A stretch of 64,000 bases of DNA from Deltaproteobacteria bacterium (GTDB lineage: Bacteria > Desulfobacterota > Syntrophorhabdia > Syntrophorhabdales > Syntrophorhabdaceae): positions 1 through 64,000 of the forward strand of contig JAKPCK010000141.1 in assembly GCA_029553295.1 (NCBI GenBank), written 5' to 3'. Below, piece by piece: positions 35,512-41,542 of this stretch (the first letter of the stretch is position 1; every line of letters begins with the position of its first letter). Made by a program: the position numbers and the translations under genes. Below the pieces are notes generated by a model. That model ran no database searches, was not told the origin of the DNA, and saw only the letters and a program-made list of their open reading frames with translations.

Positions 35512-36501
35512 ATGAAACTCGGTATCCTTGTTATAGACGATGAGGATGGTATCAGGAGGTCCCTAACAAGGATACTCAGGGAAGATGGATATATTGTCCA
35601 TACTGCACCCAACGGCGAAGAGGCGTTGAGCCTTGTAAGAAACAATCCATCCAATCTCGATGTCATAATATGTGACCTGATTATGCCGGGCATAGACGGC
35701 ATAAGGACCATAGAGGAGATAGGCAAGATACACCACGAGGCCACAAAGATAATCCTTACAGGATATGGCACCCTTGAGTCATCTATAAAGGCCATCGAGG
35801 CCGGTATAGACGGTTTCATAACCAAGCCCTTTGAAAACAAGGAACTTAAATGGAAGATAAGGGAGTATTACATAAAGAGGAAGATGAGGCAGTTTATTGC
35901 CCCTGATGTATTCAATGAGCTCTTGAATGAGCCTGCCCAGCTCGAACCCAGGATATCCCTGATAACCATACTATTCTCTGATATAAGGGGCTTTACCAGG
36001 TTGTCCTCCCTTGTCCCTCCAGATGACCTTGCCGTACTCTTAAACAGGTATTATTTTCAACCTATGAGCGAGATAATAAAGAGACACAGGGGTATGATAG
36101 ATAAATATATAGGGGATAGCATAATGGCCTTGTTCGGTGTACCCGTGTATCAAGAAAGGCATGAGGAAAATGCGGTCAACTGTGCCATAGAGATGATGGA
36201 GCTTATAAGGCAGCTCAATAAGGGATTTGAAATAGGCATAGGTATCAGCACAGGCCATGTGGTTACAGGGATATTCGGTTCTGTAAATAAAAAGGAATAT
36301 ACCGCCTTTGGGATGCCTGTCAACATCGCTGCAAGGCTACAAAAACTTGCTTTACCTGGTGAGGTGGTTATCTCTGAGGACACAAAAAAGGCCTTAAACA
36401 ACAACATCCCCTTTGAAAGGGGTGGTCTTTTAAGGGTCTCTTCATCATCCGCCCCTGTCACATACTATAAATGGATTGGAAATGGAAATAATACGATTTA
36501 A
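35512..36501 (+). CDS. Response regulator fused to class III adenylate cyclase
   Basis: 329 residues. The receiver domain has the phospho-acceptor Asp55 (IICDLIMPG), LTGYGT and TKPF. A class III cyclase domain from about residue 145 has metal ligands Asp157 (FSDIRGFT) and Asp202 (IGDSIMALFG), Lys198, the purine-side Thr264 (KEYTAFG), and Asn271/Arg275 (VNIAAR). All catalytic residues are present, and Thr in the purine position favours ATP. It should make cAMP under control of an unseen histidine kinase. AAAGGTGG precedes the ATG. It overlaps the relA/spoT-like gene. Confidence 0.9.
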   Translation: MKLGILVIDDEDGIRRSLTRILREDGYIVHTAPNGEEALSLVRNNPSNLDVIICDLIMPGIDGIRTIEEIGKIHHEATKIILTGYGTLESSIKAIEAGIDGFITKPFENKELKWKIREYYIKRKMRQFIAPDVFNELLNEPAQLEPRISLITILFSDIRGFTRLSSLVPPDDLAVLLNRYYFQPMSEIIKRHRGMIDKYIGDSIMALFGVPVYQERHEENAVNCAIEMMELIRQLNKGFEIGIGISTGHVVTGIFGSVNKKEYTAFGMPVNIAARLQKLALPGEVVISEDTKKALNNNIPFERGGLLRVSSSSAPVTYYKWIGNGNNTI

Positions 36502-38623
36502 TGACATAGTAGAGGAGATTACAAAGTATAATCCCGGTGCAGATGTAGAGATGCTCGAGAAGGCATATATCTTCTCTGCCAAGGCCCACAGGGGACAGAC
36601 CAGGCTATCTGGGGAACCGTACCTGATACACCCCCTTCAGGTTGCATATACCCTTACCAAGATGAATCTCGATGTCCCCAGCATTGTATCCGGGCTCCTC
36701 CATGACACTATTGAGGACTCCTACGTAAGCAAGGAGGAGATAGAGAGGTATTTCGGCAAAGAGGTGGCAGAGATTGTAGACGGTGTAACCAAGATAAGCA
36801 AGATCCATCTAAGACCTGCCGAGGACTCAAGGGCAGAGAACATAAGAAAGATGATACTTGCCATGAGCAAGGATATAAGGGTCATATTGATAAAACTGGC
36901 AGACAGGTACCACAATATGCAGACCCTTAATTTCCTCTCCGAGGAAAAACAGATTGAGATAGCAAGGGAGGCCCTCGAAATATATGCACCCCTTGCCCAC
37001 AGGCTCGGCATAGAGTGGCTAAAGGGGGAACTCGAGGACACAGCCTTTAAATACCTAAAACCCCTGGAATACAATATAGTCAGCCAAAAGCTCGCAAAGA
37101 AAAGAAAGGAGAGGGAGCAGTATATAAACGAGGTAAAAGACCTCATCAAAAAAAGGCTCGAGGAATCAGGTATAAATGCCGAGGTATATGGCAGGGCAAA
37201 AAGGTTGTACAGCATCTATAAAAAGATGTTAAACGAAGGCATAGATGTCAATGACATATACGACCTTACTGCCTTCCGTGTAATAGTCAATACCGTGAAG
37301 GAGTGTTACGAGGCCTTAGGCTACATACACTCATTCTTTAAACCCATACCTGGAAAATTCAGTGATTATATAGCCCTTCCAAAGGCAAATATGTATCAAT
37401 CCCTCCACACAAAGGTAGTAGGCCCACACGGGGAAAAGATAGAGATACAGATAAGGACCCACGAGATGCATAGACTGGCCGAGGATGGGATTGCAGCGCA
37501 CTGGAAATACAAAGAGGGTAAGCTCTTTGATGCCAAGGAGGACAAGATATTCCAGTGGTTGAGGAGGATAATAGAGTGGCAGCAGGAACTCAAGGACAAC
37601 AAGGAATTCCTCGAGATATTCAAGATAGATCTCTTCCCGGATGACATATATGTCTTTACGCCGAGAGGGGATGTAAAGGAGTTGCCAAAAGGGGCAACCC
37701 CGGTTGACTTTGCCTATGCCATCCATACACAACTCGGTCATACATGTGTTGGGGCCAAGGTGAATGGCAAGCTTGTCCCCCTGAGGCATGTACTGAAGAG
37801 TGGCGATATAGTGGATATACAGACCAACCCATCCCATAAACCAAGCAAAGACTGGCTTGGATTTGTAAAGACCTCAAGGGCAAAGGCAAAGATTAGACAG
37901 TGGATAAAGACCGAACAACGAGAAAAAAGCATAGAACTCGGCAGGGTTTTACTGGAGAAAGAACTTGCCAAACATGACCTCAGCTTCTCAAAGATGCTGA
38001 AATCAGGGGAGCTTGAGGGTCTTGCAAAGGATTTCAGCTATGAGACCATAGAAGACCTTTTTGCCGGTATAGGCTATGGCATCCACACGCCCCTACAGAT
38101 TATAGGCAAATATGTCCCGGACGAGGAAAAACCGGGCAAGATTAAACAGATAATCAAGACCATTACAAAAACCAGGGATAGCTCTATAAAGATAAAGGGC
38201 GTAGATGGTCTGGTGATAAAGTTTGCAAGATGCTGTAACCCTATACCAGGGGACAAGATATTCGGGTTTATAACAAGGGGCAGGGGCCTGACAATCCATG
38301 TGGAGGATTGCCCCAATGTCCATACCTACGATGCACAGAGGAGGGTGGAGGTCTCATGGGAGCTCAACAAAGACATGACATATCCTGTAAGGCTAAGGGT
38401 TGCCGGTGAAGACAGGAAGGGTCTCTTATCTGATATAAGCACCATTATGTCATCGCACAAGGCAAACATAATAAGCGCCCAGGCCACTACAAACCCAGAC
38501 AGGTCTGCCGTAGGTGTATATGAGATAGAGATAAAGCACATGTCACAGCTTCAGAAGATTATAAAATCCATACAAAAGGTCAAGGGCGTAAGGACAGTAG
38601 AGAGGCTGAGGGGTACAGGTTAA
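36482..38623 (+). CDS. relA: RelA/SpoT-family (p)ppGpp synthetase/hydrolase
   Basis: About 713 residues with all domains of a bifunctional long RSH enzyme. The HD hydrolase domain has GLLHDTIEDSY near residue 68. The synthetase has GRAKRLYSIYKKM, YDLTAFRVIV and EDGIAAHWKYKEG; TGS (DIYVFTPRGDVKELPKGATPVDF), a Cys-containing linker (RCCNPIPGD) and a C-terminal ACT domain follow. It controls the stringent response. ATG 36482 (or TTG 36476) lies inside the cyclase gene, so the two are co-translated. Its 3' end overlaps the convergent lpxC fusion by 4 bases. Confidence 0.95.
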   Translation: MEIIRFNDIVEEITKYNPGADVEMLEKAYIFSAKAHRGQTRLSGEPYLIHPLQVAYTLTKMNLDVPSIVSGLLHDTIEDSYVSKEEIERYFGKEVAEIVDGVTKISKIHLRPAEDSRAENIRKMILAMSKDIRVILIKLADRYHNMQTLNFLSEEKQIEIAREALEIYAPLAHRLGIEWLKGELEDTAFKYLKPLEYNIVSQKLAKKRKEREQYINEVKDLIKKRLEESGINAEVYGRAKRLYSIYKKMLNEGIDVNDIYDLTAFRVIVNTVKECYEALGYIHSFFKPIPGKFSDYIALPKANMYQSLHTKVVGPHGEKIEIQIRTHEMHRLAEDGIAAHWKYKEGKLFDAKEDKIFQWLRRIIEWQQELKDNKEFLEIFKIDLFPDDIYVFTPRGDVKELPKGATPVDFAYAIHTQLGHTCVGAKVNGKLVPLRHVLKSGDIVDIQTNPSHKPSKDWLGFVKTSRAKAKIRQWIKTEQREKSIELGRVLLEKELAKHDLSFSKMLKSGELEGLAKDFSYETIEDLFAGIGYGIHTPLQIIGKYVPDEEKPGKIKQIIKTITKTRDSSIKIKGVDGLVIKFARCCNPIPGDKIFGFITRGRGLTIHVEDCPNVHTYDAQRRVEVSWELNKDMTYPVRLRVAGEDRKGLLSDISTIMSSHKANIISAQATTNPDRSAVGVYEIEIKHMSQLQKIIKSIQKVKGVRTVERLRGTG

Positions 38624-39870
38624 TGGTAAAAATGAGACTTGAGTTCCTTGACAAGGCCTATGTTTTCCATGTGGCCTGTCTGTTTTGCCACGACCCGTCC
38701 TATAATTGGCCTGTTTAATAGATAGAGGTCTCCTATAAGGTCTAAAACCTTATGTCTTACAAACTCATCCTTATATCTCAGTTTGGTATTTACAACGCCT
38801 GTATCGCTGAGCAGTATCACGTTGTTTACCCTGCCCCCGGAGCCAAGGCCCATCTGGTTCAGCCTCTCAAAGTCTTTTAGAAAGCCGAAGGTCCTTGCAG
38901 GGGCTATATCTGTCCTGAAGGCGTTTTTCTCATCTATAAAATGATAGTGCTGGATACCTATGGGTTCCGGGTGCACCAGGTCATAGATAACCTCAAAGTG
39001 TTCGGCCGGCTCTATATACAGGTGCTTATCATCGGGGAGGTTTTTCAGGGATATGACCTCATTTATCTTCAGGGGTTCAACCCCCTCCTTCTGTTCTACA
39101 ATCTCTGCCTCCTCTATCTTTTTACAGAGCTCTATGGCTGAGCCATCGAGTATGGGCACCTCCTCGCTCACCTTAATAAGGAGGTTTGTAATACCATACA
39201 TATGACAGGTTGCCATTAGATGTTCTATAGTCCTGACTATGCATGTCTTCCCCTTGACCGATGATGCATAGCCTATGGAATATACGTAATCTATAAAGGC
39301 AGGTATCCTCTCCCCTTCCGGGACGTGTTCGAATACAATGCCCGTGTCCTCTGGCATGGGTAGAAGTATCATCCCGGTCTTGACACCGGAGTGGAGACCT
39401 ACACCATAGACAACGATGCTCTTACCAATGGTCTTCTGCTTGCATATGTTAGGGCCCTTTGATATGCCTATTCTAAAGTCATCCTTTTTGTCCTGTTGGG
39501 GCTCTTTTCCAGCAAGACCCCTTGATATGACCTCAAGGACCTTCTCTATGGTCAGGGGCTTCTCCAGGAAATCAAAGGCACCCATCTTGACGGCCTCCAC
39601 TGCTGTTGAGATTGTCCCGTGCCCGGAGATGACAATGACAACAGGGTCATTATCCCTTTTCTTTATCTCCCTTAAGATCTGTATACCATCCATCTCTGGC
39701 ATCCATATATCAAGAAAGACTATATCCGGCCTTTCCTTCTCAAAAATGGATAACCCCATCTTGCCATCCGTTGCCTTAAATACTATAAACCCCTCATCCT
39801 CGAGCATGGAAGAGAGGATATCGAGTATGTTCTTCTCGTCGTCTATAATAAGGAGTTTTTTCATAGCCAT
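38620..39870 (-). CDS. lpxC: Response regulator receiver domain fused to LpxC
   Basis: 416 residues. Residues 1-120 are a receiver domain with Asp54 (VFLDIWMPEMDG), SGHGT and EKPL. After a linker of about 20 residues, LpxC starts at KQKTIGKSIVVYGVGLHSG. The deacetylase residues correspond to E. coli Glu78, His79, His238, Asp242 and His265: Glu216-His217 (TIEHLMAT), His373, Asp377 (RHKVLDLIGD) and His400 (QTGHMENIGLV), with the 238-265 spacing exactly kept. LpxC performs the committed step of lipid A synthesis; here it could be gated by phosphorylation. Convergent with the RSH gene. No clear ribosome binding site. Confidence 0.93.
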   Translation of the reverse strand: MAMKKLLIIDDEKNILDILSSMLEDEGFIVFKATDGKMGLSIFEKERPDIVFLDIWMPEMDGIQILREIKKRDNDPVVIVISGHGTISTAVEAVKMGAFDFLEKPLTIEKVLEVISRGLAGKEPQQDKKDDFRIGISKGPNICKQKTIGKSIVVYGVGLHSGVKTGMILLPMPEDTGIVFEHVPEGERIPAFIDYVYSIGYASSVKGKTCIVRTIEHLMATCHMYGITNLLIKVSEEVPILDGSAIELCKKIEEAEIVEQKEGVEPLKINEVISLKNLPDDKHLYIEPAEHFEVIYDLVHPEPIGIQHYHFIDEKNAFRTDIAPARTFGFLKDFERLNQMGLGSGGRVNNVILLSDTGVVNTKLRYKDEFVRHKVLDLIGDLYLLNRPIIGRVVAKQTGHMENIGLVKELKSHFYH

Positions 39871-39931: not shown

Positions 39932-39961
39932 AAAAAACTTTGCAAAAATTATGAGGTTTTT
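39932..39961. repeat. Degenerate copy of the palindromic repeat
   Basis: AAAAAACTTTGCAAAAATT followed by ATGAGGTTTTT shares the CTTTGCAAAA core and imperfect symmetry with the 19600 element. It reaches the 3' end of the restriction gene. Confidence 0.3.
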
Positions 39962-40571
39962 ATGCATCAATACCTATAAGGATAAGTGGTACAGCTGGGA
40001 CACCACGACCTTGACGAACTATATTATAAAACTCGCCTTCGTAGTATGCGATACCAGAACTCATTTGACTTTGCAATGACTTCATTGGGAGTATCTCGAT
40101 CCCTACATCAATAAGATCACCTATATAAAAGGCCAAATGTTTCACAAAAAGATCATAGGCAACAAATGCATATTTCCCAAATTGGACCTCAACGGCAACT
40201 CGATCTTTAACAAAATCAGTCTGATTGTAACTAAAAATTGGCTTTTCACCTGCCTCCTCTATTTCTCTTTTTTGTTCCTCTGGTGACATGGTTAATGTCT
40301 TTCTGATAAGCCTCTCATTTTTTGTTACCCAATAACTTACCCGATTTTCTTGCCATTTTTTTGAACGTAAAAGCTGTTTGAAAGCTGCATTTATATCAAT
40401 AGGGCTGAATAAAAGCCTCCCCTTCATTTTCTTCTCATTGGAAATCTTGGTTCTGCAATTCTGTGCATCTACTGCCGAAACAACATCCTTTATTTCTTTC
40501 CAAAGAGCCGGTTTATGAACGAGAAGAAATTCAAGTCCGTTAAGATGTGAGTATACTTCAACAATCTTCAA
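39960..40571 (-). CDS. Type II restriction endonuclease, BglII/BstYI-like
   Basis: 203 residues from a TTG start at 40571, overlapping the methylase stop, with AAGGAGGATAA as ribosome binding site. The sequence closely recalls BstYI: it opens KIVEVYSHLNGLEFL, and DFVKDRVAVEVQFGKYAF carries the Asp...Glu-x-Gln active site of BglII-type enzymes. BstYI cuts RGATCY; the same site is a fair guess here, not shown. Codons (more ATT/ATC and CGT, less ATA/AGG) differ from the neighbourhood, which points to transfer together with the methylase. Confidence 0.87.
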   Translation of the reverse strand: MKIVEVYSHLNGLEFLLVHKPALWKEIKDVVSAVDAQNCRTKISNEKKMKGRLLFSPIDINAAFKQLLRSKKWQENRVSYWVTKNERLIRKTLTMSPEEQKREIEEAGEKPIFSYNQTDFVKDRVAVEVQFGKYAFVAYDLFVKHLAFYIGDLIDVGIEILPMKSLQSQMSSGIAYYEGEFYNIVRQGRGVPAVPLILIGIDA

Positions 40572-41542
40572 TTATCCTCCTTGTCTCCCTTGCTATCTCT
40601 TTTTTCGAATAGCATCATCTGATTGGTCTCTTTTTTCCATGGGGCATCGGTAAGTCTGTTACCCGATGTAACAGGGTCATATATTGGTTTGTCCATAGGC
40701 CTAGTGCGCAAAGTGCCTTCCATCTCTTGTTGTATTCTCTTTAATGCAATCTCAACATATCTATGAACTATTTCTGCCCCAACACCACGTCTTCCATGAC
40801 GTATAGCAGCAATCATTGATGTACCTGTCCCAAGAAAAGGATCTAATACCCAATCATTCTCATTTGTAAGAGAAAGGACTAAACGCTCAATCAATTCTAC
40901 TGGAAACTGACAGGGGTGTTCTGTCTTTTCTACGTGGTTGCTCTTGACATTCGGGATCATCCACAAGTCGCCCGGGTTTTTGCCAAGCGGATTGCATGAA
41001 TATTGTCCTGCTTTTGGACCTTTAAAATATTTCTTTCCAGGGTATTTTTGTGGGATTCGAACAGGGTCAAGATTGAAAACATAATTATCATTCTTTGTGA
41101 ACCAGATGATTGTTTCATAACGGCCTGAAAAACGGCGCCTACAATGCAGACCATGTTCAAAGTGCCAGATGATACGGTTACGCATACGTAGGCCGAGGTT
41201 TGCAAAAATAGGATATAAAATATTGTCCAGTGGTATTATAGCACCTTTTTCTACATAATTTCCCACCTGCCAGCAAATGCTTCCTCTTGGTGTTAATATA
41301 CGCACACATTCGGCGATTACCTGGGATTGTTGATGCAGATATAGGTCAAGATTAAGTCTTTTTTCATATTCCTTGCCAATATTGTAAGGGGGTGAGGTAA
41401 CAACAAGCTGTATTGATTCATCAGGTATGCTTCTCATTAGTTCAAGGCAGTCACCGGGGTATAAGACTATAGACTCTGCTAAAGAGAATTCATTGGCTAT
41501 TTTATAATGCTTGCCAAATAAGGTCTGGGCGTAAGTCTTCAT
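40568..41542 (-). CDS. Type II DNA methyltransferase paired with the BstYI-like enzyme
   Basis: 324 residues. Motif IV TSPPYNIGKEYE (about residue 50) precedes the SAM-binding DPFLGTGTSMIAA (about residue 235), the beta-class order for amino (N6-adenine or N4-cytosine) methylases; SPPY is most common among N4-cytosine enzymes. It protects host DNA from the partner nuclease. Codon choice includes CGT, CGC and ATT, unusual here. Methylase first and nuclease second, with a one-codon overlap, allows protection to come first. Confidence 0.9.
   Translation of the reverse strand: MKTYAQTLFGKHYKIANEFSLAESIVLYPGDCLELMRSIPDESIQLVVTSPPYNIGKEYEKRLNLDLYLHQQSQVIAECVRILTPRGSICWQVGNYVEKGAIIPLDNILYPIFANLGLRMRNRIIWHFEHGLHCRRRFSGRYETIIWFTKNDNYVFNLDPVRIPQKYPGKKYFKGPKAGQYSCNPLGKNPGDLWMIPNVKSNHVEKTEHPCQFPVELIERLVLSLTNENDWVLDPFLGTGTSMIAAIRHGRRGVGAEIVHRYVEIALKRIQQEMEGTLRTRPMDKPIYDPVTSGNRLTDAPWKKETNQMMLFEKRDSKGDKEDN

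Follow-up and report, generated by a model that had tools for sequence, protein, structure and literature searches.

Outer-membrane biogenesis is controlled mainly at LpxC, the deacetylase of the lipid A commitment step. The enzyme is also an antibiotic target, and its regulation beyond the gammaproteobacteria is largely open. In E. coli the enzyme is controlled by turnover (PMC13333357, PMC12444477). When ntrYX is lost in R. sphaeroides, the lpxC transcript goes up 8.8-fold and lipopolysaccharide rises as well, with no NtrX sites at lpxC (PMC7240162), and according to a review the effect of NtrYX on lpxC has the same direction in Caulobacter crescentus (PMC12444477). A second link comes from Desulfovibrio vulgaris, where lpxC is the only mapped target of the response regulator DVU2934, and from S. 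fumaroxidans, where the operon of the orthologous regulator follows directly after lpxC (PMC3333781). Here we describe rec-lpxC, a gene encoding an LpxC with an N-terminal response regulator receiver (REC), in the first 64,000 nucleotides of contig JAKPCK010000141.1 from a Syntrophorhabdaceae bacterium (assembly GCA_029553295.1; this whole stretch is called the window below). Comparison with related genomes makes it likely, as the best explanation of the findings as a whole, that an NtrY kinase phosphorylates the receiver of what is the sole LpxC of these bacteria and so changes LpxC output directly.

The locus resembles the NtrYX systems of R. sphaeroides and C. crescentus in receiver type, in target step and, probably, in kinase family. 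There, however, NtrX is a separate protein that affects lpxC transcription (indirectly in R. sphaeroides), whereas here the receiver lies within LpxC and a separate NtrX is absent. As NtrYX already affects lpxC in other bacteria, the fusion would make that control direct. DVU2934 is likewise a response regulator aimed at lpxC, and comes from a related phylum, but it controls by DNA binding; the likeness drawn here is one of target. The single-domain LpxCs of E. coli, P. aeruginosa and A. aeolicus share the catalytic domain, the active-site residues and the fold but have no receiver, and control of the E. coli enzyme is by proteolysis involving FtsH, LapB and YejM. Response regulators with enzymatic output include CheB, the RpfG-type HD-GYP proteins and PorX, in which a receiver also controls a covalently attached enzyme; the targets of those outputs are receptors, second messengers or phosphodiesters, whereas LpxC takes the committed step in an essential pathway to an envelope lipid. 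In LpxC-FabZ (NCBIfam PRK13188) LpxC is again joined to another domain, but the partner is a second enzyme, a dehydratase, and not a signalling domain. LpxC, receivers, enzymatic response regulators and the LpxC-FabZ fusion are each already known separately; what is new, as judged from the protein sequences, is a response regulator whose predicted output is an essential biosynthetic enzyme. Our search of the open-access literature turned up no account of such a receiver-LpxC fusion, although an earlier mention elsewhere is possible, and a term search found it unmentioned in two recent reviews of LpxC control.

An earlier note on this DNA, made from the sequence alone, had proposed the fusion, and domain searches bear it out (Table 1). 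The PF03331 match lies far above the cut-off of 27 bits and covers profile positions 1-267 of 268, TIGR00325 (lpxC, NCBIfam) scores 218.4 against a cut-off of 187.25, and the best NCBIfam response-regulator family for the N-terminal half is NtrX (127 bits). All the key residues that had been named are in place, within a complete receiver phosphorylation set (Asp10, Asp11, Asp54, Ser82, Lys104) and a complete set of LpxC zinc ligands and catalytic residues (Glu216, His217, His373, Lys374, Asp377, His400), and by both domain and residues the LpxC half is a predicted deacetylase. The E. coli spacing claimed for these residues holds exactly for His373-Asp377 and His373-His400 and nearly for His217-His373, which are 156 residues apart against 159 in E. 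coli. A Pfam search of the protein found neither a sigma-54 AAA+ domain nor a Fis-type helix-turn-helix, so that it is not an NtrX but only NtrX-derived at its N terminus. An AlphaFold model built from 17 natural sequences, which we read for each domain and the linker, predicts both domains with confidence and shows disorder at residues 122-132 (predicted local distance difference test score under 50); solved LpxC structures match the LpxC part of the model (E ~1e-29). The PF03331 search found a single LpxC in the window genome, which is 96.8% complete, and the presence there of lpxD and lpxB implies a lipid A pathway.

A search for such fusions and their taxonomic range, suggested in the earlier note, recovered 55 loci. 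The carriers are uncultured anaerobes and form a large group, comprising Syntrophorhabdales metagenome-assembled genomes (MAGs), which are the closest relatives, other Desulfobacterota families, Binatia-type and 'Deltaproteobacteria' MAGs and one Oligoflexia MAG. When 99 relatives were searched with PF03331, the open reading frames around complete LpxC matches measured about 415-611 amino acids across all three families of the order, the window's own included, while most other families in the phylum had frames of about 280-390 amino acids; reading of individual loci confirmed the receiver-LpxC architecture in the three (f1-f3). The fusion is the sole LpxC in 11 of 11 genomes contributing loci to the wider scan (Binatia-type, 'Deltaproteobacteria', Oligoflexia), and it is also found on a chromosome-size contig (L103, OX638375.1). 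Asp10, Asp11, Asp54 and Lys104 of the receiver and Glu216, His217, His373, Lys374 and Asp377 of the enzyme are unchanged in all 55 fusions, and position 82 is always Ser or Thr. Mean identity to the window protein is 63.6% for the receiver and 63.8% for LpxC, which indicates a constraint on the receiver about equal to that on an enzyme presumed essential. One MAG (G091) has a single-domain LpxC in addition to a fused one (loci L074 and L076); its size of 5.9 Mb and its contamination of 5% make it possible that the single-domain copy is foreign.

The connection to NtrYX, which the earlier note did not make, is the main evidence for the mechanism. Fusion receivers lie near NtrX receivers in a receiver tree, with weak support and within a comparison set chosen by similarity to the query. 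At 12 loci of sister lineages (Binatia-type and families f6, f21 and f36) a gene for an NtrY-type kinase with NtrY_N, HAMP, PAS, HisKA and HATPase_c domains stands directly upstream of the fusion on the same strand, with spacing that ranges from a 44-base overlap to gaps of less than 100 bases. In unfused genomes, which have a single-domain LpxC, ntrX follows ntrY in 14 of 16, and in 5 of 16 lpxC stands just before ntrY in the order lpxC-ntrY-ntrX, with a DUF4390 gene between lpxC and ntrY in two of the five. NtrX was found beside NtrY in none of 15 fusion genomes of other families and none of 19 Syntrophorhabdales genomes, although NtrY itself is kept. Genome-wide, the best score of the NtrX model is 484-533 bits in 12 of 12 unfused genomes, each time at the gene adjoining ntrY, whereas a true NtrX is absent from all 24 fusion genomes scored, where the best value is at most 423 bits, in the range of ordinary paralogs; the scores separate the two groups completely. 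With the separate NtrX missing, the sensor kinase probably controls the LpxC enzyme itself rather than the lpxC gene. The direct phosphorelay input into lipid A synthesis put forward in the earlier note is thus supported at the level of sequence, by the invariant phosphorylation site, the NtrY operons and the loss of a separate NtrX exactly in the fusion genomes.

The DUF4390 protein encoded between lpxC and ntrY has about 190 amino acids (L083:8192-8758 and L084:6683-7255; Pfam matches), and an open reading frame of similar size is also present in L076. It could be a partner of NtrY or its sensor.

In a tree of 75 LpxC domains, 38 of them from single-domain LpxCs of the same phylum, all fused LpxC domains form one clade on a long stem (100/100 support), apart from the 38; a single origin of the fusion is the simplest reading. 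Four tree members of 725-776 amino acids have the architecture REC-AAA+-LpxC and group together within the REC-only fusions (94/92 support); the loci are L064, L065, L071 and L072, together with the later-found L209. All five have lost the GAFTGA loop and have a broken Walker B Asp-Glu while keeping Walker A, and 11 of 11 stand-alone NtrX proteins of the same phylum have an intact Walker B and the loop, including the variants GSFTGA and GAFPGA. These losses suggest that the REC-AAA+-LpxC forms have probably given up sigma-54 activation and that their AAA+ domain is an apparent relic of a sigma-54 module. What was a transcription circuit has apparently become a switch on an enzyme, and some lineages still carry the broken sigma-54 modules.

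In the mechanism that we propose, the NtrX-derived receiver on the lineage's sole LpxC would act as a working switch. An NtrY-family membrane histidine kinase would phosphorylate Asp54, and this would change LpxC output, the likeliest routes being a change in the tethered enzyme's activity, in its self-association or in its placement at the membrane; as to sign, activation by phosphorylation is slightly favoured. A transcriptional NtrYX circuit on lpxC would in this way have become a post-translational one. The fuller account, in which this circuit took the place of transcription control by NtrX and reached several phyla as the only circuit controlling LpxC, seems to us rather more plausible than its opposite. 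If phosphotransfer takes place, it would be a new mode of LpxC control. A receiver on LpxC would name the input, a two-component kinase, and tie NtrYX to lipid A across phyla, and REC-LpxC offers a compact system for testing direct phospho-control of the enzyme.

Several observations weigh against this proposal. Relatives of the window in Syntrophorhabdales have a single NtrY-like kinase of full length (E 1e-119 to 1e-176) that retains the HEIKNPLTPI phospho-acceptor motif and the NtrY domains, but its gene is unlinked to the fusion, typically in the context pgeF-ntrY-smpB, and the protein is divergent (30-34% identity, long branch), so that another of the 34 HisKA matches in the window genome could be the partner. 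In the window genome itself NtrY was not found, the best match being partial (1.4e-44), and neither was pgeF, its neighbour in relatives; their joint absence suggests an assembly gap, which is the likely explanation. In the NtrY tree, made to look for co-inheritance, the kinases of fusion genomes do not come together. Since the genomes are related, 12 of 12 against 0 of 24 does not amount to 36 independent events. Finally, the AAA-bearing fusions are nested in REC-only ones, so a simple reduction from REC-AAA-LpxC to REC-LpxC is not demonstrated. On balance we infer that the partner kinase of the window protein belongs to the NtrY family. The conserved gene order around the unlinked kinase gene (L195-L199 and related Syntrophorhabdales loci) is selA, rluD, pgeF, ntrY, smpB, without NtrX, the neighbours being named from reading of their sequences.

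The main rival to phospho-control of the enzyme's output is that the receiver governs LpxC stability and not catalysis, with phosphorylation deciding proteolysis in place of the FtsH route of E. coli. Turnover is, as noted above, how the E. coli enzyme is controlled, the fusions end only 1-21 residues past the LpxC domain and thus have little C-terminal tail, and receivers serve as protease adaptors elsewhere, as in RssB and CpdR. We nevertheless consider this unlikely, as no degron or adaptor site was identified in the fusions and many tail-less LpxCs carry no receiver. Still less probable is a receiver that is merely structural, supporting dimerisation or folding while unphosphorylated in vivo. 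Some receivers do function without phosphorylation, and the fusion linker is unconserved in length and sequence, but every phosphorylation residue is invariant in 55 of 55 fusions across several phyla, 12 loci have the kinase operon, and the competing NtrX has been lost from fusion genomes. As for a join made in sequencing or assembly, or a fused LpxC that only duplicates an essential separate one, either of which the earlier note would have taken as refutation, nothing was found in favour and practically no room is left: the 55 fused loci come from independent assemblies, the chromosome-size contig among them, and LpxC is single in the window genome as in the 11 others. The recurring fusions and the single LpxC in these genomes rule out both.

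Table 1. Features of rec-lpxC in the window, with the evidence for each.
Feature	Position	Strand	Evidence
rec-lpxC fusion gene	38620..39870	(-)	416 amino acids, ATG start; domain searches and recurring fusion in relatives
NtrX-type receiver, residues 7-115	39526..39852	(-)	Pfam PF00072 (Response_reg) 110 bits; NCBIfam; tree
Asp54 codon, phospho-acceptor	39709..39711	(-)	invariant in 55/55 fusions
Linker, residues 116-144	39439..39525	(-)	length and sequence vary among fusions
LpxC deacetylase domain (predicted), residues 145-411	38638..39438	(-)	PF03331 260.6 bits; fold match of model
Glu216-His217, LpxC active site	39220..39225	(-)	invariant in 55/55
His373...Asp377, LpxC active site	38740..38754	(-)	invariant in 55/55
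His400, LpxC active site	38671..38673	(-)	54/55; sole gap is a contig end

A second in-frame ATG, two codons downstream of the first, is an alternative start of rec-lpxC. The genes around it include a receiver-adenylate/guanylate cyclase gene at 35512-36501 (+), which overlaps the start of a RelA/SpoT-family gene that is in turn convergent with rec-lpxC, with a 4-base overlap. The earlier note had drawn attention to these convergent neighbours, and both genes are real, but their position is incidental. On the same strand, immediately upstream of rec-lpxC at 39960-41542 (-), are the genes of a restriction endonuclease of BglII type (PF09195) and of an N4/N6 DNA methylase; this pair was not seen next to the fusion in relatives. 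None of these genes, whether RelA/SpoT, receiver-cyclase or BglII restriction-modification, clustered with the fusion-adjacent genes of relatives. We therefore rejected them as functional partners, and the flanking genes of the window give no evidence of function. A conserved block does occur in 17-18 of 31 Syntrophorhabdales loci (L035-L060), where apparent phoH, pgpH-type HD protein, ybeY and lnt genes, named from reading of the sequences, stand upstream of the fusion and divergent to it.
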